A stretch of 46,120 nucleotides of DNA from Candidatus Saccharimonadota bacterium (GTDB lineage: Bacteria > Patescibacteriota > Saccharimonadia > Saccharimonadales > Saccharimonadaceae): assembly GCA_017447485.1 (NCBI GenBank), contig JAFSNI010000024.1, positions 1-46,120 of the forward strand, in the 5' to 3' direction. The notes under the pieces were generated by a model. It was not told the origin of the DNA, made no database searches, and saw only the letters and a list, made by a program, of their open reading frames with translations. The position numbers were made by a program, and so were the translations under genes. Positions 3,779 to 13,207 of this stretch are shown here, piece after piece. Numbering within the stretch: position 1 is the stretch's first letter; each line of letters starts with the position of its first letter.

Positions 3779-4257
3779 CTCACCACCCTTGCAATCGCAT
3801 TCTCTCCCATCTTAAACATCACCTGCGCTCGCGCTTCAGTCTCAAATTTGTCATAAATCCGCCCCGCCGACCGCGTCCCCCGCACCACCGTTTCCACCGA
3901 ATTCGCCACCGTCATCGCCTTTTCATCCAGCACCTCGCCGCTCAAAACATCAATCTTCTGCGCCGCAATCGCCTCATCATCAGTCTCATTCCCATAATCT
4001 TTCTTCAAAATCACATAATCCCCGACATCCACGCCGCCAGCACCAACCAGCGTCACGTACACTGGCTCCGGCTCCCGCGTCACATCCTGCGCCAGATATA
4101 GCCTCTGGATGTCTTCCGTCAAACATTTCTGTGGCTTCGTCCGCCCGTTTAGCCACGAATTCACCGTCGCAAAACTCACCCCCAACTTTGCCGCCAGCTG
4201 TTCCTGCGTCCACCCTGACGCCTTCAGCACCTCTTTTAACATTTTTTGATAATTCAT
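3772..4257 (-). CDS. HTH (XRE-like) protein with uncharacterised C-terminal domain
   Basis: 161 aa. Residues 1-60 form a helix-turn-helix of the XRE/Cro type (key stretch WTQEQLAAKLGVSFATVNSW). The remaining 100 residues are rich in Val, Gly and Asp, include GDYVILKKDYG and end in ARVVRW; I do not recognise this part. A good ribosome site (GAAAGGA) precedes the ATG. It is first of a two-gene operon with the UvrD-like helicase. It is likely a DNA-binding regulator or partner of the helicase; this is inferred from the domain and operon only. Confidence 0.72.
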   Translation of the reverse strand: MNYQKMLKEVLKASGWTQEQLAAKLGVSFATVNSWLNGRTKPQKCLTEDIQRLYLAQDVTREPEPVYVTLVGAGGVDVGDYVILKKDYGNETDDEAIAAQKIDVLSGEVLDEKAMTVANSVETVVRGTRSAGRIYDKFETEARAQVMFKMGENAIARVVRW

Positions 4258-4302
4258 ATTTTCCTTTCAAAACTCTTGCCTTTATAAATATTTGTGTTAT
4301 AC

Positions 4303-5016
4303 TTAAGGCACAGGGGATGCATTCCCCACCCTCGAGGACGCACTTTCGGGATCGTCCTCATTTTTTATCGAAATCTTATCTTTTATGTCCTCAATATTAA
4401 AAAGTTTATACCGCTCAGAAAATTCTCTATTCAACTCTTTTAATCTGGTCGATAACGTATTCTTACCAAAATCTTTAACATAGGGAGTTACCATCATCGT
4501 TATTTTAATTCTTGGATTTTTCATTGCAATCCTTACCGCCTCCGCATAATCTCCATCACAAGAAACAACAATAATATGCCTATCTTTCCTCGCGCGAAAC
4601 GCGACCTCCAGCATCTCCGATGCTAAATACACATCTACATTAGATTTCAATACCCTAGTTCTCGGTAAAACCGTTACAATGTTTTTATGGCCACATTTCT
4701 TACACACAAAACTTCTCTTTACGGCGTCTTTAATATAAGCCTTTCTCTCTAGTGTTTTAATACTATATCCGGCTTCTTTCAATTCTTCCAAAATCTTAAC
4801 CTTACCGCCATCGCCCTTCGCCAAACCCTCATAATAGCTCATTTTTCTTAACTTTGGATATTTTGTTTGAAAATATTGTGCCAATTTGGCAAAGTCAACC
4901 TGAAATCCGCAAGTCTTCAAGCACGCCGCCCGAATATTACTTACATCAATAAAAATATACGTTTCTAAATCCGCGTTTTTCCTCCGTCTTTTTAATATTT
5001 TATTTATTAAAAACAT
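4303..5016 (-). CDS. NYN-domain (LabA/DUF88-like) protein, putative RNase
   Basis: 237 aa from the ATG at 5016. The open frame extends upstream to 5073, but the promoter at 5041-5070 lies inside that extension, and GGAG (5022-5025) precedes the 5016 ATG. The NYN core shows the acidic motifs expected of PIN-like nucleases: YIFIDVSNIR near the N-terminus, SNVDVYLASEM in the middle and VVSCDGDYAEAV. A CKKCGHK pair between them suggests a small zinc-binding insert, although only one CxxC is seen. NYN proteins are known or predicted RNases. It sits between the HTH-helicase pair and an ApeA-like HEPN gene. The family is fairly sure, the substrate unknown. Confidence 0.75.
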   Translation of the reverse strand: MFLINKILKRRRKNADLETYIFIDVSNIRAACLKTCGFQVDFAKLAQYFQTKYPKLRKMSYYEGLAKGDGGKVKILEELKEAGYSIKTLERKAYIKDAVKRSFVCKKCGHKNIVTVLPRTRVLKSNVDVYLASEMLEVAFRARKDRHIIVVSCDGDYAEAVRIAMKNPRIKITMMVTPYVKDFGKNTLSTRLKELNREFSERYKLFNIEDIKDKISIKNEDDPESASSRVGNASPVP

Positions 5017-5040
5017 TTTTACTCCACTATCACTACAACC

Positions 5041-5070
5041 ATAATACACTCTCGCCGCCCAAAAAGTCAA
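5041..5070 (-). promoter_or_regulatory. Promoter of the NYN gene
   Basis: Minus strand TTGACT (5065-5070), an 18-bp spacer and TATTAT (5041-5046). The predicted start near 5034 leaves an 18-base leader with GGAG before the ATG at 5016. The promoter decides the gene start. Confidence 0.7.
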
Positions 5071-5127
5071 CACTTTTTTATAAAATCATCAAAAATAATC
5101 TGTAAAAACTTTTATAAAATAAAAACT

Positions 5128-6381
5128 CTAGTTACTCCACTCCGTCGACCAACGCCAAATCATAATTTGCGTTGTCATGGCTAACCATATATAATAACGC
5201 CCAAAATTTCCCCCAATTTCTTTTTTCATGGCCCCAAAAGCCCCTCGGTGCGAAAGGTTATTGCGCACTTTGTGTGAAATTGTTACACACTCTTCAAAAG
5301 TCAACTGGCCGTCTATCGCGCCATCTTTATAACCAGCTTTTTCGCATAGACGCCTAATTTTAGTACTAAAATCCACTCTATCATTCACAAAATCGCTTTT
5401 GGTGCGAATAATCGTCTTTAACTTAGTATTGCTAATGTTGTCTCCGCCATCTTTAATGCATCTCTTCAACAATTTCACCATCTCGTCATATTGAGCTTCA
5501 CGCTCCGCTCTACTCTTCTCCCCCTCAAAACACAAAGTATATACTAAATCCAACGCGACCAATAAATTCTTAAACCTATCTTCCAAGAACCCAGTTCTAT
5601 CACTATACGACAGTATAAAACTTCGCCACAATTTCAACGGCCCCAACTCTTTACCTAAAATCCCGTTTAGAAGCCCTGCTGGTGCTCCGCCCTTATTCAT
5701 AATCACTGCACTAAAACCGCCACTGAACTTCTCGGTATATTTATAAATAGGTTCCCTGCCAGATTCAATCTCTTTGCAGAAAACACTCTCCCCCTCTTTC
5801 CAAATCGCAAAAACCGACTTTTCCACAACCGGTCGCCAAAACGACAAACTCATACCCAAATTAATTTTATCCACTATCCCACTCACTCTGTCTCCTCCGC
5901 ACAAAATATCGCCTTTTTTCTTAAAAATCTCGACATTCAGCCACTTTGTCGTAGTCTTTTTCCAACCCATCTCAACAACATTATGATCAATCAGTTTCGT
6001 CAGGCAAGCCGTCTCTTCATTCAGTTCAATCATCTTATCATCTATCACCCCAGCCAACGCCGTCGAAGGGTATTCAATCTGAATTTTCTCTATAAAATTA
6101 CCATTCACATATTCATCTGGCAAAACAACCCCATTTTCACTAATCGCCCAAGCTACCTCATATTCTTTTTCCGCAAAAAAGTCCACGGTATTCTTATCGT
6201 CTATCTTAATTGCAAATTCTTTATCACCAAAAGTACTGATCGTATGCACGAATTTATTCTTGTCAAACCTGCCAAATACCTTCACTTTCATCGCGCCTTC
6301 ATTTTCCAACCACAAAGTCCCGGTAATCCCCCCTTGGACTACGACCATCGGCTGCTTTTTCAACATTTCTCGCAATTTCAT
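5128..6381 (-). CDS. ApeA-like HEPN-domain protein, putative abortive-infection nuclease
   Basis: 417 aa from the ATG at 6381. An ATG at 6387 is in frame but abuts the -10 box, so the leaderless start at 6381 is preferred. The N-terminal half is beta-rich with a G-x-L-W and KVFGRF pattern like the ApeA N-terminal domain. The C-terminal quarter holds HKVRNNLSHRG near residues 370-380, giving the R-x4-H signature of HEPN RNases (about R373 and H378). ApeA-type HEPN proteins are established anti-phage proteins in other bacteria. The gene is a single unit next to the terminator of the surface cassette. HEPN membership is good; ApeA kinship and the defence role are inference. Confidence 0.62.
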   Translation of the reverse strand: MKLREMLKKQPMVVVQGGITGTLWLENEGAMKVKVFGRFDKNKFVHTISTFGDKEFAIKIDDKNTVDFFAEKEYEVAWAISENGVVLPDEYVNGNFIEKIQIEYPSTALAGVIDDKMIELNEETACLTKLIDHNVVEMGWKKTTTKWLNVEIFKKKGDILCGGDRVSGIVDKINLGMSLSFWRPVVEKSVFAIWKEGESVFCKEIESGREPIYKYTEKFSGGFSAVIMNKGGAPAGLLNGILGKELGPLKLWRSFILSYSDRTGFLEDRFKNLLVALDLVYTLCFEGEKSRAEREAQYDEMVKLLKRCIKDGGDNISNTKLKTIIRTKSDFVNDRVDFSTKIRRLCEKAGYKDGAIDGQLTFEECVTISHKVRNNLSHRGAFGAMKKEIGGNFGRYYIWLAMTTQIMIWRWSTEWSN

Positions 6382-6387
6382 TACCAT

Positions 6388-6396
6388 ATTATACCA
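6388..6396 (-). promoter_or_regulatory. Extended -10 promoter, leaderless HEPN gene
   Basis: TGGTATAAT ends 6 bases before the ATG at 6381, so the predicted transcript begins at the start codon. No good -35 box is seen. Confidence 0.65.
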
Positions 6397-6397
6397 T

Positions 6398-6426
6398 AAA
6401 ATACCGCCCCTCTCAGGACGGTATTT
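6398..6426 (-). terminator. Terminator of the left surface cassette
   Basis: The minus-strand RNA forms an 11-bp stem (arms 6416-6426 and 6398-6408, one G-U pair) followed by a T-rich run. It lies 15 bases after the stop at 6442 and directly before the HEPN promoter. Confidence 0.75.
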
Positions 6427-6441
6427 CGTTGTATATTTATA

Positions 6442-7407
6442 TTATTCTGTTTCAATTCTTTTTCTACTGTTTTTCCTGGACTTGGCGCGCATGACGAAAT
6501 AAATGGCAACAACTGCAATCGCAAAGATGATTATAAACAGCAGCCAAATCGGGCATTTAATTACCATCTTGGAGACTTGCTGGGTGACGCCTTCAAATTC
6601 TACCGTGTAAACTACATTGAAAATACCGAAAGTCGGGGTATTGTCCATAACTGTTTTACGAAGCAAAGTCCTATCTGGTAAAATTACGGCACTAGCCGGA
6701 TCTTCCTCATTAGTGTATAGCTCTTCATCTGAAAATAGAGGGTAAACTTTTAAAGTATAATATGCACGACTGTGCACATTGCCGGTATTTTTTATAGACG
6801 CCGTTCCAGCAATGTCGCCAGATAAAATAAAGCCAGGTACATCTACATTGATTATTTCACCTTGTCTGATGGTCTTGCCAGTGACTTCGGCATAAACTAA
6901 ATGTCCGATGGCAATTTTCTCGCCAAGAGCTGCACCATTTCCGCTCTCATCGCCATTACTAATAGCTGCGGATGATACTCTAATATCTGCATATTGACCA
7001 CCAGCCGGTGCATCTGCTGGAACATTAATTGTAAATAATATTTCCGTGACATCATTCGGCGACAATGTTCCACTTTTTGGCGAATCTATCGTTATCCAAT
7101 CAGTGATCAGATTTCTGCTGCTAGCCACGCCAAAAACATTATTATAATTCTCATCTACATAAAAAGCTTGCACATCTACTTCATATTTAATATCTACAGT
7201 TTGCGTTCCTGGACAGGAAATTTTAAAAGAACTTCGATAAGTATCTCCCGGATTTAAAACAATATCTTCCCTTAGCGGAGAAAGCGTAAAGCCTGCTGAG
7301 CCTTCCGCAATTGCAAATGTCTTAGGTACTCCTATGGTTAAAATTGTAAAAGTGGCTATAGCAATAATAGCCAACATGTGCCAAAATTGTTTTAAATTTT
7401 TTTTCAT
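6442..7407 (-). CDS. Cassette L gene 3: secreted DUF916/WxL-interacting-like membrane protein
   Basis: 321 aa from the ATG at 7407, which has AAGGAG in front; an in-frame ATG at 7422 overlaps the stop of the previous gene. The protein has a signal peptide (hydrophobic residues about 12-32), an extracellular beta-sandwich region beginning FTLSPLREDIVLNPGDTY, a long middle part with DAPAGGQYADIRV, then one membrane helix near the C-terminus (WLLFIIIFAIAVVAIYF) and a basic tail rich in Arg and Lys. The layout resembles DUF916-type cell-surface complex proteins of Gram-positives. Its homologue is at 10971-11939 (322 aa). The C-terminal 60 residues of the two are almost identical in protein but differ at many silent sites, while the outer domains have diverged. 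Confidence 0.75.
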   Translation of the reverse strand: MKKNLKQFWHMLAIIAIATFTILTIGVPKTFAIAEGSAGFTLSPLREDIVLNPGDTYRSSFKISCPGTQTVDIKYEVDVQAFYVDENYNNVFGVASSRNLITDWITIDSPKSGTLSPNDVTEILFTINVPADAPAGGQYADIRVSSAAISNGDESGNGAALGEKIAIGHLVYAEVTGKTIRQGEIINVDVPGFILSGDIAGTASIKNTGNVHSRAYYTLKVYPLFSDEELYTNEEDPASAVILPDRTLLRKTVMDNTPTFGIFNVVYTVEFEGVTQQVSKMVIKCPIWLLFIIIFAIAVVAIYFVMRAKSRKNSRKRIETE

Positions 7408-7418
7408 TAGTCTCCTTT

Positions 7419-7994
7419 TCATGACTCTTCGTTAATAATTTTGCAATTAAAACCTTTGTTCTCATAGAGGTATTTTATCTCATCAAAAGTATATGTTCCA
7501 TCTGTGCTAGTTTTTTCAAGCATAAAATATTTTGCACTTTGATTATTGATTTCTGATTTTTTAGCATATAGACTCATTTTTAGGCTGTCCTGAAGCTTAG
7601 AGAAACTCATTCCTAAACTTTCAGCATCCAAATCATTATCGGCAAAACTCAGTCCCATAGAAGCATGATTAATGGCCTCACTACTAGCAATCGCATTTTC
7701 TGTATCATAGTATAGCGTGTTTATAAGCGCTATTGAATACAGATTGTCGTTATTAAAAATAATGTTAATCTTAATATTCTTTTTAGTGGATTTATCGTAA
7801 GTAAAAAATGGATACGCGAAATTATCAATTTCGCAAGTAATTGATTGTGAAGTTTCCAGTTCAGGCCAATTGCCAGATATAGTTGTTTCACCCTTCACTA
7901 AAAACCAAACCAAAAAAATCCCAGCAATCAATACTAGGAAAATTCCAATATACCTAAACCAATCTGTATTCCCACCGTTATAGATTTTCCGCAT
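7419..7994 (-). CDS. Cassette L gene 2: N-anchored exported protein
   Basis: 191 aa. A short cytoplasmic N-terminus, one membrane helix (about residues 14-34, GIFLVLIAGIFLVWFLV) and an outer domain with two cysteines (SITCEID and FNCKI near the end), possibly disulfide-bonded. AAAGGAG precedes the ATG. The stop overlaps an upstream ATG of gene 3 (ATGA). Homologous to 10394-10978, sharing the pattern GE/STT-GN-P-ET and the order of motifs. Family not recognised. It probably forms an envelope complex with the other two cassette products. Confidence 0.72.
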   Translation of the reverse strand: MRKIYNGGNTDWFRYIGIFLVLIAGIFLVWFLVKGETTISGNWPELETSQSITCEIDNFAYPFFTYDKSTKKNIKINIIFNNDNLYSIALINTLYYDTENAIASSEAINHASMGLSFADNDLDAESLGMSFSKLQDSLKMSLYAKKSEINNQSAKYFMLEKTSTDGTYTFDEIKYLYENKGFNCKIINEES

Positions 7995-8033
7995 ATTACT
8001 CCTTTACTTTTATCTTAAACGGCGTCCCCCTAT

Positions 8034-8060
8034 AGAAAAGCCCCTATGTGGGGCCTTTCT
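8034..8060 (-). terminator. Hairpin between cassette L genes 1 and 2
   Basis: 11-bp stem on the minus-strand RNA (arms 8050-8060 and 8034-8044, one G-U pair) with TTTTCTAT on its 3' side. It lies between gene 1 and gene 2 and probably lets only part of the transcripts continue, giving more gene 1 product. The right cassette has a hairpin at the same place. Confidence 0.65.
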
Positions 8061-8075
8061 AGTAGTCGCGTCTAA

Positions 8076-8642
8076 TTAGACCGTAGTACCAGTCAATTCA
8101 TAAACAGCGGCCGAAGCGTTAGTGTATACGCCATATGGCTGGTTGTTTAAAGTGCCGACGGAATACTTTACAGTGAAAGTATCACCCGCAGCTGGAGTTT
8201 CGGAGTCGCTCGTTTTTACAGTTTGCCCAGACGTTACGTATGCAGCTGCGCCGTCAGTAACCAAAGCGGACCATTTGCCGTCGTTTGCGGCAGCGGCGCT
8301 GGTCTTATAAGTGATTTCATCACCACCAGCATCCGTCAAAGTGCCGAAAGTGCCAGTCACGGTGTAACCAGCGGTATCATTGCAGTTGACCGTGAAGGAA
8401 CTCGTACCAAGGTCTTTAAGTTGGCCAGCGAGCATAGTACCAGAGTACGTGCCGCCGTTATAGGCAGCGCTAGTTGCGGCATTGTCACCAGTGGCAGCCG
8501 TACCAGTGCGAGTAAGCGTACAAGACTTCTCGATGGTAACTGTCAACACGTCAGTGACGGTATCATCCACTGCAAACGCACCCAAGACTGGCATCGCTGC
8601 GAGAGCTACAGATGCTGCACCTGCGATTAATGCTTTTTTCAT
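8076..8642 (-). CDS. Cassette L gene 1: small secreted two-cysteine surface protein
   Basis: 188 aa. A clear signal peptide (lysines, an alanine-rich core, likely cleavage after GAFA). The mature part is rich in Thr, Ala and Gly, with one Cys in the motif KSCTLTR and another in FTVNCNDTAGYTVTG, probably a disulfide; the fold is likely all-beta. The first 18 codons, ribosome site and upstream 49 bases form part of a 105-bp inverted repeat shared exactly with the gene at 9722. After that the two proteins diverge strongly but keep both cysteines and the GY-TGTF pattern. This is the promoter-proximal gene and currently faces the consensus promoter at 8715-8743. It is probably an abundant surface or appendage subunit; this role is inferred. 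Confidence 0.8.
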   Translation of the reverse strand: MKKALIAGAASVALAAMPVLGAFAVDDTVTDVLTVTIEKSCTLTRTGTAATGDNAATSAAYNGGTYSGTMLAGQLKDLGTSSFTVNCNDTAGYTVTGTFGTLTDAGGDEITYKTSAAAANDGKWSALVTDGAAAYVTSGQTVKTSDSETPAAGDTFTVKYSVGTLNNQPYGVYTNASAAVYELTGTTV

Positions 8643-8691
8643 AATTTTTCTTCTCCTCTGCTATAAGCAGAATTAACTTATATTTGTGTTA
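8587..8691 (-). repeat. Inverted repeat, left arm (105 bp)
   Basis: Perfectly inverted copy of 9673-9777 (position x pairs with 18364 minus x). It spans part of the 5' leader, a small CTGC-TTATA-GCAG palindrome, the ribosome site AGAGGAGAAG, the ATG and the first 18 codons (signal peptide) of the cassette gene. Matching stops sharply at both ends. It is the likely substrate of the recombinase encoded between the arms. Confidence 0.95.
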
Positions 8692-8714
8692 AAATATGAC
8701 CTTTAACATCTTCT

Positions 8715-8743
8715 ATTATACGTAACCGTAATGTGATTGTCAA
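8715..8743 (-). promoter_or_regulatory. Switch promoter, now driving the left cassette
   Basis: Minus strand TTGACA (8738-8743), a 17-bp spacer and TATAAT (8715-8720). The predicted start is near 8708 and gives a leader of about 66 bases that crosses the repeat arm. It is one of the few full -35/-10 consensus promoters in the window and the only one found in the invertible segment. Confidence 0.88.
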
Positions 8744-8754
8744 GCAATTTTTTC

Positions 8755-8797
8755 AAGTTTTTTTAAGTTTTTCCACGTCCCCGTCTTAAACAAACTT
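8755..8797. other. Imperfect inverted repeat after the recombinase gene
   Basis: AAGTTTTTTTAAG (8755-8767) and CTTAAACAAACTT (8785-8797) pair at 12 of 13 positions across a 17-base loop. It sits between the recombinase stop and the switch promoter. It may be a weak terminator separating the two, or a protein-binding site. Confidence 0.4.
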
Positions 8798-8806
8798 TTC
8801 CACAAA

Positions 8807-9640
8807 TTATTCATATTTCTCAAATAATTCTCTTAATTTTCCATCAAATCCATGCAGATATCTCTCAGTTGTCGCAATGCTGGCATGGCCCATCATTTCT
8901 TTAATCTCCGCAATCGAGGCGCCTTTGCTTTGCAGGTTCGTCGCAAAAGAATGGCGTAGCGCATGCGGATAAAAATCTTTAAACCCCGCTTTTAAAAACG
9001 CTCTCTTTAACTTTTTTCTAATCGTGCTCGGCGTCGGCGGCTCGCCATTCAGGGTCTTCCCCCATAAAGAATTTTGAATCTTGTATTTTTTTATAAAATC
9101 TTGAACTTTTTCAAACGTTCCTTTCTTAATATAAACCTCGCGCAGCTTTCGGCCCTTGCCGATAAACTGGATTTTCTGCCACTGAAAATCCGTAACTTTG
9201 AGTTTTGTAATTTCCGCAATCCTCATCCCGGTCTCAAACATAATTTCTATAATGAGCCCAGTTTCCTGATCGGCGGCTTTAATTACTCGCCCAATTTCCT
9301 TCGCAGTATAAAATTTTCGCTCAGTCTTTTTCTCCTTTTGCTTCTGAACCAGGACCGGCTTGAAAGGAATCACCAGCCCAAGCTCCTGATAATATTTGAC
9401 AAAAGAGATGATTGTTGCGCTGTAAGTGTTAATGGAGCGCCCACTGGTTTTATTTTGGACCATTTTGGCGATGTATTGGTTGAAAATGTAGTTTGATAGT
9501 TTATATAAATCCCTTAATCCTGTTTCATCGGCAAAACGAATTAGAGTGTAGCGTTTCGTTCTTAAAGTCACCTCGCTCATTCTTCTAACTTTTTGACAAT
9601 ATGTCAAATAACTTTCAATTTGTTTGTAAATTGCTTTCAT
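8807..9640 (-). CDS. Tyrosine recombinase, putative invertase of the surface switch
   Basis: 277 aa, full length for a XerC/D-type recombinase. An N-terminal SAM-like DNA-binding domain (about 1-100) precedes the catalytic domain with all expected residues: R140 (ETGMRIAEI), a lysine in IGKGRK (162 or 165), H226 and R229 (HALRH), H252 (GHAS) and nucleophile Y261 (ERYLHG). AAAGGAG precedes the ATG. The gene lies alone between 105-bp inverted repeats that start two surface operons; no phage genes or att-tRNA are nearby, so an on-site invertase is the best reading. Cell-wide Xer function is less likely because of this setting. Confidence 0.9.
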   Translation of the reverse strand: MKAIYKQIESYLTYCQKVRRMSEVTLRTKRYTLIRFADETGLRDLYKLSNYIFNQYIAKMVQNKTSGRSINTYSATIISFVKYYQELGLVIPFKPVLVQKQKEKKTERKFYTAKEIGRVIKAADQETGLIIEIMFETGMRIAEITKLKVTDFQWQKIQFIGKGRKLREVYIKKGTFEKVQDFIKKYKIQNSLWGKTLNGEPPTPSTIRKKLKRAFLKAGFKDFYPHALRHSFATNLQSKGASIAEIKEMMGHASIATTERYLHGFDGKLRELFEKYE

Positions 9641-9672
9641 TTCACTCCTTTAAGCTTAATTTTGAAATATAC

Positions 9673-9777
9673 TAACACAAATATAAGTTAATTCTGCTTA
9701 TAGCAGAGGAGAAGAAAAATTATGAAAAAAGCATTAATCGCAGGTGCAGCATCTGTAGCTCTCGCAGCGATGCCAGT
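9673..9777 (+). repeat. Inverted repeat, right arm (105 bp)
   Basis: Perfect inverted copy of 8587-8691. It covers leader, ribosome site, ATG (9722) and 18 codons of the right cassette gene 1. It contains a partly symmetric TAAC-(10)-GTTA block (9673-9690), a possible core site for a tyrosine recombinase; this last point is a guess. Confidence 0.95.
9697..9705 (-). promoter_or_regulatory. Possible recombinase promoter inside the repeat
   Basis: TGCTATAAG on the minus strand is an extended -10 box with 5 of 6 core matches; transcription would start near 9690, about 50 bases before the recombinase ATG. Because it lies in the repeat, a copy would face the recombinase in either orientation. No convincing -35 box. 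Confidence 0.4.
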
Positions 9778-10327
9778 GGTTGGGGTGTTTGCAGTAGACA
9801 ATACTGCCATCACTGATAATTTCTCGCTTACAATCGCCCCGACATGCGCGTTGTCTCGTGCCGCAACCAATACTGATGCAACTTTAAGTGGTGTAACAGC
9901 TGGCGAATCCGTAACGGCTGCAGCCACATACACTAAATCTGATGCCGTAGCTAACCAAAAATATACAATGGGCACAAGTACGCTTAAAGTAATCTGCAAT
10001 AACCAGACTGGTTATAAGCTTACTGGCACCTTCAGCCCCCTCACTAACAGCTTAAAAGCGTCAGATGGTAGCGACATTACTATCCCTTACAGTGCTGCCG
10101 CCGTTGAAGCCGGTACTGCGGGTTGGACTGCTTACACTAGCTCTAATTATTATACGAGCGCTGCTTCTGGCAATATCTTATCTAGCAACACAGTTTCGGC
10201 CGCTACTGGCGACACGAAAGCTGTCACTTACGATGTGGCAACTGCTTCAAACCAGGCTGCTGGGACCTACACAGGCACCGCAAGCTACAATCTAGCTGCA
10301 AATGCCGCCTACACTTCAGGGTCTTAG
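9722..10327 (+). CDS. Cassette R gene 1: small secreted two-cysteine surface protein
   Basis: 201 aa. The signal peptide starts with the same 18 residues as the left cassette gene, encoded by identical DNA, with likely cleavage after GVFA. The mature part is Thr/Ser/Ala-rich with Cys in APTCALSR and KVICNNQTGYKLTG, matching the two-cysteine pattern of the left protein, but otherwise the sequence is quite different. It is first of three genes. In the present orientation no consensus promoter is seen upstream, so it may be silent until the segment inverts. It is probably an alternative surface subunit. Confidence 0.8.
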   Translation: MKKALIAGAASVALAAMPVVGVFAVDNTAITDNFSLTIAPTCALSRAATNTDATLSGVTAGESVTAAATYTKSDAVANQKYTMGTSTLKVICNNQTGYKLTGTFSPLTNSLKASDGSDITIPYSAAAVEAGTAGWTAYTSSNYYTSAASGNILSSNTVSAATGDTKAVTYDVATASNQAAGTYTGTASYNLAANAAYTSGS

Positions 10328-10339
10328 CCTGAACATCTT

Positions 10340-10379
10340 AGTAGCCCCCCCCAAAAAAAGAGGGGGGAGCTACTGATTT
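10340..10379 (+). terminator. Strong hairpin between cassette R genes 1 and 2
   Basis: The arms AGTAGC plus a C-run (10340 onward) and a G-run plus GCTACT (to 10374) form a long GC-rich stem, followed by GATTTTTA. It mirrors the hairpin in the left cassette and probably lowers expression of genes 2 and 3 relative to gene 1. Confidence 0.75.
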
Positions 10380-10393
10380 TTAGGTAGGCATAA

Positions 10394-10978
10394 GTGAGCG
10401 AAAGTGGAGGTATGAAAAAAATTAATATAGCTAACTTAACAAGATGGGCAGGAATGACCCTTATTTTTATTGCAATTATATTAACCTTGATATTTTTTAT
10501 GCGAGGATCCACAACAGTTATCGGCAATTACCCAGATCATGAAACTCTCGATTCGCTCTCCTGTGTAGCTGAGGGCATAGACTATCCAACTTATGTTTAC
10601 GATAATTCAAAGCGGAAAAGCACTAAGATCAACGCAACTTTCAACGATAACAAGCTGACGACAATCTCGTTAGTACACATATTATATTATGATGACAGTA
10701 GAAAAGTCACGGATAGCGAAGCTTTGAATCACGCTGCAGTAAATATCGACTCACAAAATGCAGATATCTTTAGCGCACACTATTCCAAATTTTCCGATGC
10801 AATGTCAATGACCATGTACGCTGAACTGAAAGATATAACTAATTCTACAAAAAAATACATGATGTTAAATTTAATATCTGCGGATAATTTGACAAAGGAA
10901 TCCGTAAAATGGAACTATGAAACTCAAGGATTTGTCTGTAATATTAGCAAAATTAATGAAGGAGCACAAAGTGAATAA
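10394..10978 (+). CDS. Cassette R gene 2: N-anchored exported protein
   Basis: 194 aa from GTG 10394, which has a weak TAGG ribosome site; the ATG at 10412 (188 aa) is an alternative. One membrane helix near residues 20-37 (TLIFIAIILTLIFFM), then an outer domain with Cys in LSCVAEG and GFVCNIS, the same layout as the left homologue at 7419-7994 (shared TTV/ISGN-P-ET region and SEALNHA/ SEAINHA motif). Its 3' end overlaps the GTG start of gene 3 by 8 bases. Function unknown; likely a partner in a surface complex. Confidence 0.72.
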   Translation: MSESGGMKKINIANLTRWAGMTLIFIAIILTLIFFMRGSTTVIGNYPDHETLDSLSCVAEGIDYPTYVYDNSKRKSTKINATFNDNKLTTISLVHILYYDDSRKVTDSEALNHAAVNIDSQNADIFSAHYSKFSDAMSMTMYAELKDITNSTKKYMMLNLISADNLTKESVKWNYETQGFVCNISKINEGAQSE

Positions 10979-11939
10979 GCTATCAAAATTCATAAAATTA
11001 GTCATTGCCGGAAGTCTGCTTTTACTTTCAGTATTATTATTTAGCCCAATATTCAAGGTTAAAGCTTTAGAAAATGGCAACTATGTACCAGCCCTCTCAG
11101 TCTCGCCTATGGCCGAAAGTATCGTTTTAAACCCAGGTGATACATACTCAAGCTCAATCAAAGTTAGCTATCCACAAAACGCAAGCAGTAGCACGCACTA
11201 CAAAGTTGCGATTCAGCCATTTTACGTCGACGAAAATTACAATAACGTCTACGAAAAACTCGACAATTACAGTTTAATCGTGGATTGGGTTAACTTTGAT
11301 TCTCCAGAAACTGACGAAGTAAAACCAGGCGAAATCAAAGAAATCTACTATACTTTTCGCATCCCATCAGATGCCCCGGCGGGCGGTCAATATTTTGCTA
11401 TTACCGTCGCATCTGACACTTCAGAGACAGAGATTAAAGGCGACGCAATCAATGTCACAGAAATACTTTCCGTTTCGCATCTTGTTTTCGTAGAAATCAC
11501 CGGCACCACCATACGGCAAGGCGACATCACCAGTATTAATGTACCAAGTTTCATATTATCAGGAGACGTATCCGGATCTTCTACCATAAAAAACACTGGC
11601 AACGTGCATAGCGATGCAACTTACAAATTACAAGTGTTCCCATTGTTCTCCAATGAAGAAGTATACACGAACGAAGAAAAACCAGACATAAGAAGAATTA
11701 TGCCAGATAGATCATTTTATAACGAAACCATTTGGTCCGACACCCCCGCTTTTGGCATCTTCAATGTCGTTTACACAGTGGAATTTGAGGGTGTTACCCA
11801 GCAGGTTTCCAAAATGGTCATTAAATGCCCGATCTGGCTCCTCTTTATTATTATCTTCGCTATCGCGGCCATCATCATTTACTTCGTCATGCGCGCCAAA
11901 TCTCGCAAAAACAGCCGCAAACGCATCGAAACCGAATAA
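10971..11939 (+). CDS. Cassette R gene 3: DUF916/WxL-interacting-like membrane protein
   Basis: 322 aa from the GTG at 10971, which has AAGGAG (10959-10964) at good spacing; an earlier in-frame ATG at 10917 lies deep inside gene 2 and is rejected. Signal peptide (about 10-33), outer beta-rich region beginning LSVSPMAESIVLNPGDTY, DAPAGGQYFAITV in the middle, a membrane helix near the C-terminus and a basic tail. Homologous over its full length to 6442-7407 (321 aa), nearly identical over the last 60 residues including FEGVTQQVSKMVIKCPIW. The conserved tail suggests docking to the same cell component from both cassettes. Confidence 0.78.
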   Translation: MNKLSKFIKLVIAGSLLLLSVLLFSPIFKVKALENGNYVPALSVSPMAESIVLNPGDTYSSSIKVSYPQNASSSTHYKVAIQPFYVDENYNNVYEKLDNYSLIVDWVNFDSPETDEVKPGEIKEIYYTFRIPSDAPAGGQYFAITVASDTSETEIKGDAINVTEILSVSHLVFVEITGTTIRQGDITSINVPSFILSGDVSGSSTIKNTGNVHSDATYKLQVFPLFSNEEVYTNEEKPDIRRIMPDRSFYNETIWSDTPAFGIFNVVYTVEFEGVTQQVSKMVIKCPIWLLFIIIFAIAAIIIYFVMRAKSRKNSRKRIETE

Positions 11940-11947
11940 TACAACCA

Positions 11948-11982
11948 AGGGCTCAATTTTATGAGCCCTCTCCGTATTTTTT
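11948..11982 (+). terminator. Terminator of the right surface cassette
   Basis: AGGGCTCA (11948-11955) pairs with TGAGCCCT (11962-11969), followed by a T-run at 11976-11982. It also covers the 3' end of the convergent gene 11959-12333. Confidence 0.8.
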
Positions 11983-12333
11983 CATAGCGCTGATAAAAGC
12001 TTCTTTATTCTTCCCGCGCCCGACAGAAAACCACTTTGCCAACATCATGAAGCCAATCGCAATAGATAAAAACGTCGCAATCCAAAATATCGTGCTTAAG
12101 TTTAAATTAATACCAAAAATATTTTGCGTCCTATCAGGATCGCAAGTTGAAGCTGCGATAAAAAACGTTACCGAATAGCCAAACGGACTTAGCGCCGTGG
12201 ATAATTTTGGCGCCTCAACAAAGTCGTGATAAATATTTTCGGCCTTTGATACACTGATGCCAATAGTCTTGTCACTCGTATTGTCATAGTCCACTGGTTG
12301 TGAACTACTCAATATAATCTTCTTATTTCTCAC
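11959..12333 (-). CDS. Small membrane protein, two predicted helices
   Basis: 124 aa, no family recognised. A polar N-terminus, then hydrophobic stretches near residues 52-62 (YSVTFFIAAS) and 82-102 (IFWIATFLSIAIGFMML), and a basic tail. The start overlaps the end of 12323-12706 by 11 bases, so the two form an operon convergent with the right cassette. Any link with the cassette is only positional. Confidence 0.6.
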   Translation of the reverse strand: MRNKKIILSSSQPVDYDNTSDKTIGISVSKAENIYHDFVEAPKLSTALSPFGYSVTFFIAASTCDPDRTQNIFGINLNLSTIFWIATFLSIAIGFMMLAKWFSVGRGKNKEAFISAMKKYGEGS

Positions 12334-12706
12334 AATTCTTCTCCTTCTCCAAATACACAGTAATATCTAAAATTGGCAACCCATCCTTTGGTTTACTCAT
12401 GGCAAACAACGTCAAAATGTTTCGATCATTATACTTGCCGACATTTATCGGCGTTTTCACGTAACTTCCTAACTCTGTCCCAAAGTTGATCATCACAAAT
12501 TCAATAGTAAATTTGTCATCTTTCTCGATAGGGCGAAACTTCACATCCGTTGCTCCGCCATCAAAGTTTATATTAAAGGCAAAATTAATCGTCTCGCCAT
12601 CCGGCATCTTCACCGGAACCATCAAATCGCCACATTTTGCCATATGAATTCGGTTATTATAAATCAATTCCAAATCCTCATTGACTATTCTGCTATATTG
12701 TGCCAT
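12323..12706 (-). CDS. Hypothetical soluble protein, beta-rich
   Basis: 127 aa with no signal peptide or membrane helix. The alternating hydrophobic pattern and the segment FVMINFGTELGSYVKTP recall DUF6864-type proteins, but this is a weak resemblance from memory. The AAAAGGAG ribosome site and an extended -10 promoter (12749-12757) support expression. It is first of a two-gene operon with a small membrane protein. Confidence 0.6.
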   Translation of the reverse strand: MAQYSRIVNEDLELIYNNRIHMAKCGDLMVPVKMPDGETINFAFNINFDGGATDVKFRPIEKDDKFTIEFVMINFGTELGSYVKTPINVGKYNDRNILTLFAMSKPKDGLPILDITVYLEKEKNCEK

Positions 12707-12748
12707 TGCACTCCTTTTTTATCTTTATCACTCTACCCACTCGCCCCC

Positions 12749-12757
12749 ATTATACCA
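12749..12757 (-). promoter_or_regulatory. Extended -10 promoter (TGGTATAAT) of the 12706 operon
   Basis: TGGTATAAT on the minus strand, with a leader of about 36 bases containing AAGGAG before the ATG at 12706. Confidence 0.65.
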
Positions 12758-12883
12758 TACGATATCAATCTACCTAAATTTTATAAAACGGATAAGCCCC
12801 GCCAAAATGCAAGCCTACTACGACCAATTCGTCTCCCTTGTCCGCTAATAACTCGCCAGCCCCTCGCAACCTACACCCAAAAG

Positions 12884-12892
12884 TGTTATAAT
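12884..12892 (+). promoter_or_regulatory. Extended -10 promoter (TGTTATAAT)
   Basis: TGTTATAAT, with a second overlapping TATAAT at 12892-12897. Transcription would begin near 12899-12905, inside the long open frame, so the true start of the following gene must lie downstream of it. Confidence 0.6.
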
Positions 12893-12946
12893 ATAATCAC
12901 GAACATCTTATCTTATTCTAAAGGTGTCGAAAAACTCGTCGACCCT

Positions 12947-13207
12947 ATGATGGTCGGCAAAACCCACTATCTTCAAACCAAACTTAAAAAACTCCCCGTC
13001 TACCTCCAACGCAAAATCATCAAATCCGCCACCAAAACCACTGGCCACTTCGGCGCCGTACTCGACAAAGTCCTTACCTTCCCCTTCGCCCAACATATGC
13101 TCTCCGACGCTCCCGGCGTCCACACTCATTATGGTAGCGAAGCTGCTTTAAGAAAAGCGGTCGAATCTGTCGATTTTTCCAAAATCAAAACTCTCGGCTC
13201 AAAATAA
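12947..13207 (+). CDS. Small basic hypothetical protein, start uncertain
   Basis: 86 aa from the ATG at 12947. The frame is open from 12644, but the promoter at 12884-12897 rules out the earlier part. Coding-like sequence continues back to about 12905 (ATC), right where transcription should begin, so an ATC start of a leaderless mRNA is possible; no ribosome site precedes the 12947 ATG. The product is rich in Lys, His and Thr with KTHYLQTKLKKLP near the N-terminus. No family recognised. The end lies 9 bp from the convergent nuclease gene. Confidence 0.5.
   Translation: MMVGKTHYLQTKLKKLPVYLQRKIIKSATKTTGHFGAVLDKVLTFPFAQHMLSDAPGVHTHYGSEAALRKAVESVDFSKIKTLGSK

Follow-up and report, generated by a model that had tools for sequence, protein, structure and literature searches.

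Why would a small bacterial genome set two divergent operons back to back around a recombinase gene, and why do the first genes of these operons begin with exactly the same DNA and then diverge strongly? Here, we address this question for a stretch of 46,120 nucleotides (the window; contig JAFSNI010000024.1, positions 1 to 46,120) from a Candidatus Saccharimonadota bacterium (assembly GCA_017447485.1). We consider it very likely that the 1-kb segment between the operons, which carries a promoter and a recombinase gene, is a DNA-inversion switch that alternates two surface-protein operons. This reading draws on the anatomy of the locus, the one-sided promoter, the recurrence of the layout in relatives, the concerted evolution of the repeat arms, the opposite orientation in syntenic relatives and the strain mosaics. 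The source organism is a tiny gut-dwelling Saccharibacterium, which would switch antigens if the segment flips.

The segment is flanked by two divergent three-gene operons, operon A on the minus strand (8642 to 6442) and operon B on the plus strand (9722 to 11939). Their first genes, A1 (8076–8642, minus strand) and B1 (9722–10327, plus strand), start within the arms of a 105-bp inverted repeat. Arm A (8587–8691, minus strand) and arm B (9673–9777, plus strand) are exact reverse complements with a mismatch at each end, and each contains the predicted recombination core, a 5′-UTR hairpin, the ribosome site and the first 56 nt of gene 1. These 56 nt, counted from the ATG, hold signal-peptide codons and are identical at every codon position. 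Under looser matching, the repeat grows to 143 bp at 92% identity. By comparison, when the same 8 kb was shuffled 40 times with its dinucleotides preserved, the longest exact inverted repeats were 12–16 bp. Identity between the two sides is 23% in the 60 nt inward of the arms and 69% in the 32 nt outward. Further out, the mature gene-1 proteins are 33% identical and the gene-3 proteins 53%; in the conserved C-terminus of gene 3, 61 of 65 residues are identical, 32 of these 61 with different codons. The initial annotation had described arms that contain leader, ribosome site and signal-peptide codons and match at third codon positions, strongly diverged genes beyond them and silent differences at the gene-3 C-termini, and all of this is borne out. 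The 612-kb assembly holds no further copy of the arm. With exactly two sites, the source genome differs from a shufflon, which has at least three sites and several invertible blocks.

The predicted invertible segment comprises the 981 bp between the arms (8692–9672). Immediately inside arm A lies a sigma-70 promoter, TTGACA-17-TATAAT (8715–8743, minus strand), which matches the consensus at 12 of 12 positions, a prediction from consensus in a phylum with little promoter data. The promoter, which was absent from the initial annotation and was added by our follow-up analysis, reads out through arm A toward operon A and has no counterpart on the side of arm B; inversion of the segment would therefore move it to operon B. 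The segment also contains a gene for a Xer-type tyrosine recombinase of 277 aa (8807–9640, minus strand; Phage_integrase, 9.2e-29, positions 2–168 of the 172 in the profile). Its nearest solved chains are the XerC-like 4a8e and the XerA 5hxy, with which the R, HxxR, H and Y residues align, and its catalytic domain is that of a tyrosine recombinase (R..K..HxxR..H..Y). The protein scores below the NCBIfam equivalog cut-offs for XerA (145 versus 220 bits), XerC (137 versus 335) and XerD (110 versus 330) and does not qualify as an orthologue of these housekeeping enzymes; a separate Xer-like gene lies elsewhere in the source genome (G000:C10). Three features by which an inverton is recognised are present: inverted repeats flanking the segment, a linked site-specific recombinase and an outward promoter on one side.

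We suggest that the recombinase recombines two inverted TAACACAAATATAA cores, core A (8678–8691, minus strand) and core B (9673–9686, plus strand), both predicted from the sequence that arms still share when they have diverged elsewhere, and that the 981-bp segment would flip as a result. The single strong promoter beside one core would then drive operon A in the orientation of this assembly and operon B in the opposite one. With the core in the 5′ leader, both proteins would always remain intact, and each mRNA would receive the same leader hairpin, ribosome site and signal peptide. That inversion would leave both proteins in frame had been proposed before, and it agrees with a likely crossover core upstream of the ATG and an otherwise identical arm. 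Each operon would supply its own version of three proteins: from gene 1 a secreted pilin/WxL-like protein, from gene 2 a membrane-anchored one, and from gene 3 a WxLIP-like one that combines two Ig-like domains with a membrane helix. The cell would thus alternate between two surface coats. From the sequence, we infer that the segment-encoded recombinase is the enzyme acting at the cores, that inversion occurs within one strain and that expression follows the orientation of the promoter.

In an alignment of gene-1 leaders, the core reads (T)TAACACAAA(A)TATAA and is followed by the hairpin, the ribosome site and the signal peptide. The hairpin, CTGC..GCAG, precedes the ribosome site of A1 (8658–8670, minus strand) and recurs before B1 (9694–9706, plus strand). 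All of the 41 leaders have such a stem, and its variants are compensated (CTGC/GCAG, CCAC/GTGG, CCGT/ACGG, CTGG/CCAG and CCATC/GATGG). Because the hairpin is also found in single-operon genomes, we assign it to the mRNA and not to the recombination site; it may serve as a translation or mRNA-stability element. The leader alignments also bring out an inverted repeat, TGTTAAA-N8-TTTAACA (8687–8708), which is half promoter-side flank and half core. This repeat lies downstream of the −10 box, is restricted to the promoter-bearing site and would re-form at whichever arm gains the promoter; it may function as an operator or, in the mRNA, as a 5′ hairpin. Promoter-bearing leaders also have an upstream TTGTGGAAAAGTT box in common.

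The same layout recurs in Saccharibacteria of the same genus, with up to three sites per locus. The core pattern is found at ~40 sites in the genus, and a reversed control pattern at none. Each of the 15 complete multi-site loci (G000, G007, G012, G018, G035, G039, G048, G109, G111, G115, G122, G140, G143, G163 and G187) has exactly one promoter-bearing site. Three of these loci (G109, G163 and G187) have three sites. In G109, the three sites accompany three operons; in G163, an inner block holds two convergent gene-1 variants that face a single gene 2-gene 3 pair, so that a nested inversion would swap gene 1 alone. Homologues of the recombinase with 45–59% identity occur in a subset of same-genus genomes, including Candidatus Saccharibacteria from goat and yak gut as well as other MAGs, and in several relatives the gene lies outside the invertible segment and its arms. 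The promoter side itself varies: G048 and G018 are syntenic (recombinase, operon, operon), and the promoter points to the near operon in the former and to the far operon in the latter, with the promoter elements aligning in inverse orientation; G039 resembles G018. This opposite facing is a difference between species, seen in assembled MAGs; it was not seen within one strain or population.

Conservation of the core follows the recombinase. The exact core is present at 40 of 44 recombinase-linked sites versus 2 of 15 sites in single-operon loci with no close recombinase found near the site (Fisher 5e-8; 7e-5 per genome, both without correction for kinship). Seven of the single-operon genomes were searched whole and have no close recombinase, and the others were judged from the region around the site; in the single-operon genome G149, there is only a distant recombinase (38%) on another contig. 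In G140, both cores are the same variant, TGACACAAATATAA, one with a promoter and one without. From the identity of the arms, the initial annotation had proposed an active site, against which related genomes with diverged arms but conserved flanks would speak. This is partly the case: G039, G018 and G140 have arms that part immediately past the core, yet the 14–19-bp core is shared and the promoter is one-sided. The part of the proposal concerning recombination is supported, but these three loci place the site at the core and not over the whole arm, and long arm identity is not required. The predicted core site is ~14–19 bp, and the long arm identity appears to be a by-product that is missing in some relatives. 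The recombinase gene of G143 (L163, G143:C9) has two stops, the arms are 71% identical, and in the promoterless operon gene 2 is missing and gene 3 is broken; judging by these lesions, G143 is a natural knock-out with a decayed switch. In most loci, the promoterless operons are intact. Contig ends lie no more than ~130 bp from a core in at least ten cases, which fits loosely with an assembler meeting repeats or mixed orientations.

Why, then, are the arms of the window identical far beyond the core? Across operons in same-genus genomes, the best match of an arm is its partner in the same genome in 18 of 24 cases, versus a mean of 1.1 under label shuffling, in which none of 5000 shuffles reached 18; when the contig L153 from a near-identical strain is included, the count is 17 of 24. 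By contrast, the best match of gene 3 is its own partner in only 4 of 19 cases because orthologues in other species are closer. For instance, gene 3 of the plus-strand operon of G048 is 72% identical to its orthologue in G018 and 39% identical to its own partner, while the arms of G048 are 92% identical. This contrast between arms and gene 3 separates conversion from recent duplication and from purifying selection. A leftover of a recent inverted duplication is rejected, as gene-3 orthologues across species are often closer than the copies within a genome, and purifying selection on leader and signal peptide alone is rejected, as arms are alike within genomes and not between them. The recombination or conversion between arms that had been proposed from the window is, in this respect, strengthened by the comparison of relatives that the initial annotation had advised. 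To explain the identity of the arms past the core, we suggest conversion or branch migration at the active site.

The length of the arms also brings in the main rival, which is that homologous (RecA-type) inversion or conversion operates between the 105-bp arms and the recombinase gene is a passenger or a mere helper. In favour of this rival, the homogenised arms extend further than a tyrosine-recombinase site plausibly would, and a same-species strain, L153, has swapped a whole operon, with the left junction at the arm. In L074 (G007), sequence away from the core is homogenised as well, in a second stretch around the beginning of gene 2 (7355–7593 and 11503–11738), which suggests gene conversion elsewhere in the operons. 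However, where arm sharing is short (~19–22 bp in G039 and G018 and ~21 bp in G140), one-sidedness of the promoter and linkage to a close recombinase persist; the core is conserved at loci with a linked recombinase and has drifted at loci without one; and in G143 the arms have diverged along with the breakage of the recombinase. We regard RecA-type inversion as an improbable substitute for the recombinase, although it may act alongside it.

Two contigs come from strains of the same species as the window. L147, binned in G154, is 99.75% identical to window positions 4039–8805. Eight of its differences fall in 8710–8775, inside the segment and by the promoter, and four in the other ~4.7 kb, i.e., the two strains are ~99.9% identical outside the segment and ~12% diverged just inside it. 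L153 (G059:C20, 1–4846) matches window 9655–9794 at 100% over its positions 1–140, covering inner flank, arm B and signal peptide, and window 12802–13041 at 98.75% over its positions 4607–4846; between these ends, it holds a different operon and extra genes. Because it matches both window flanks, L153 is an allele of the window locus in which B1 after the signal peptide has been exchanged, with the stretch 9795–12801 swapped for another operon cassette. The left junction lies where the signal-peptide codons end, 17 bp beyond the exact arm, and the right junction at window 12802. The 140-bp match is close to a common assembler k-mer length, and the contig end marks a branch of the assembly graph; a k-mer across the junction must exist in the data. 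Both L147 and L153 show mosaic junctions at the arms. We suggest that the arms also act as junctions for whole-operon swaps between strains. Beside the right junction, window 12932–13207 carries a fragment like part of a ~300-aa gene. Relatives have this gene at full length (e.g., L146, 1274–2185); in the window, it is apparently truncated.

A static locus, in which an old inverted duplication left two operons with leaders kept alike by selection, A being on and B silent or read from another promoter, and nothing flips, is very improbable. It would account for the single orientation seen in the window and in L147, and the leader hairpin and signal peptide are indeed conserved for other reasons, as they also occur in single-operon genomes. 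We also looked for the opposite orientation within the species: of 174 same-genus genomes, none comes from a near-identical strain in which the segment is assembled, and the only same-species contigs that reach the arms are L147 and L153. However, selection cannot make arms closer within a genome than between orthologues, third codon positions included; the side of the promoter differs between syntenic relatives; and promoterless operons are mostly intact, with decay seen in G143 where the recombinase is broken. Finally, a mobile-element remnant, with an integrase and terminal repeats inserted between two operons, would explain a tyrosine recombinase between repeats but is extremely improbable, as the arms consist of gene leaders, ribosome site and signal peptide included, are inverted instead of direct repeats, do not enclose the recombinase in several relatives, and have a core found on no contig of the searched viral collection.

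If the segment is an inversion switch, what would it switch? Gene A2 (7419–7994, minus strand) and gene B2 (10412–10978, plus strand) encode proteins with an N-terminal membrane segment and form a paralogue family that is also present in relatives. For gene B3 (10971–11939, plus strand), an AlphaFold model (pLDDT 83), built from window and named-collection sequences, has as its best PDB match the WxLIP of Enterococcus faecium (9i1y, E 3.5e-11), and gene A3 (6442–7422, minus strand) is assigned by the fold of this paralogue. In the model, gene 3 has the WxLIP architecture of two Ig-like domains and a C-terminal membrane helix; by sequence, it stays under the Pfam gathering score, with weak WxLIP_PGBD matches in 4 of 11 gene-3 members (best E 0.016). 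Gene 3 is present in 142 of 147 same-genus genomes, often in 2–6 copies, and thus is a core surface family of the genus. For WxLIP, binding both to WxL on peptidoglycan and to host cells has been proposed (PMC10599100). Gene 1 matched no sequence family by which it could be named, and A1 has no Pfam match. The model of B1 (pLDDT 63), from which the fold of A1 is also taken, has an Ig-like pilin fold resembling self-complemented FimA and Csu pilins (Z ~8), a likeness that may reflect a common fold arrangement. WxL chains are absent among the fold matches listed for gene 1, and in place of the dual W-x-L motif A1 and B1 contain only YxL. A surface role for the operon products is suggested by their signal peptides, membrane helices and modelled folds.

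Switches of this kind are known. In Campylobacter fetus, surface-layer genes of the sap locus are switched by homologous (RecA-type) inversion. In Lactobacillus acidophilus, inversion sets one promoter before one of two surface-protein genes, slpA or slpB (PMC7858073). The window locus shares with both of them one promoter, two alternative surface genes and inversion, but differs in having a linked dedicated recombinase, a three-gene operon as the unit and another protein family. Invertons of gut bacteria, e.g., at Bacteroides surface loci, have a promoter between inverted repeats and a tyrosine recombinase (PMC11892184, PMC4747536). The window locus resembles them in these respects and in its surface genes; however, invertons turn genes on or off, whereas the promoter here would alternate between two flanking paralogous operons, the arms, which would be portable, include leader and signal-peptide codons, and the phylum is Saccharibacteria. 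Shufflons and other systems in which inversion involves several sites, among them R64 Rci (PMC11852207) and PsrA-hsdS of pneumococci (PMC12324116), are resembled by the three-site relatives G109, G163 and G187, and in G163 the nested block would swap gene 1 alone; the window, by contrast, has two sites and would move a promoter and not coding ends. The operons are like the WxL/WxLIP clusters of Gram-positive bacteria (PMC10599100) in the two Ig-like domains and C-terminal membrane helix of gene 3, but gene 3 scores under the curated Pfam threshold and gene 1 has no WxL motif, only Y-x-L. In the literature searched, which covered subscription papers in part, we found no relevant report of an invertible-recombinase switch, WxL or phase variation in Saccharibacteria.

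Saccharibacteria are reduced episymbionts that live on other bacteria. To our knowledge, how they recognise their hosts is largely an open question. If the proposed switch is real, a genome of ~0.6–0.9 Mb still keeps a dedicated machine for surface variation. With recombinase, core site, promoter and alternative proteins named, its part in host attachment and phage escape can be tested directly, and the genomes with two sites, with three sites and with one fixed operon, together with the one that has a broken recombinase and a decayed silent operon, make a natural comparison set. We tentatively extend the model to recombinase-driven antigenic variation across the genus, a proposal to which we give a little less than even credence. 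The universal 5′ arm, with core, hairpin, ribosome site and signal peptide, would be a socket; inversion would pick one of the two or three surface operons, or gene-1 variants, that a genome carries, and homologous exchange at this same arm would plug in the operons of other strains, possibly shifting the host that is recognised or evading host or phage defences.

Two further sets of loci are worth recording. In L154 (6313–7305; G115) and L155 (8045–9190; G163), the invertible segment contains extra proteins of 330 and 381 aa, respectively, which are weakly similar to gene 1. In L081 (G024:C9, 8110–9391) and L082 (G043:C3, 7664–8977), a distant recombinase lies between perfect inverted repeats of 149 bp and 66 bp, respectively, and in L082 the gene has an in-frame TAG. 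These recombinases have 32–37% identity, and a promoter matching the consensus at 11 of 12 positions lies inside the repeats and faces one side; the two loci probably represent a second branch of the same type of switch.
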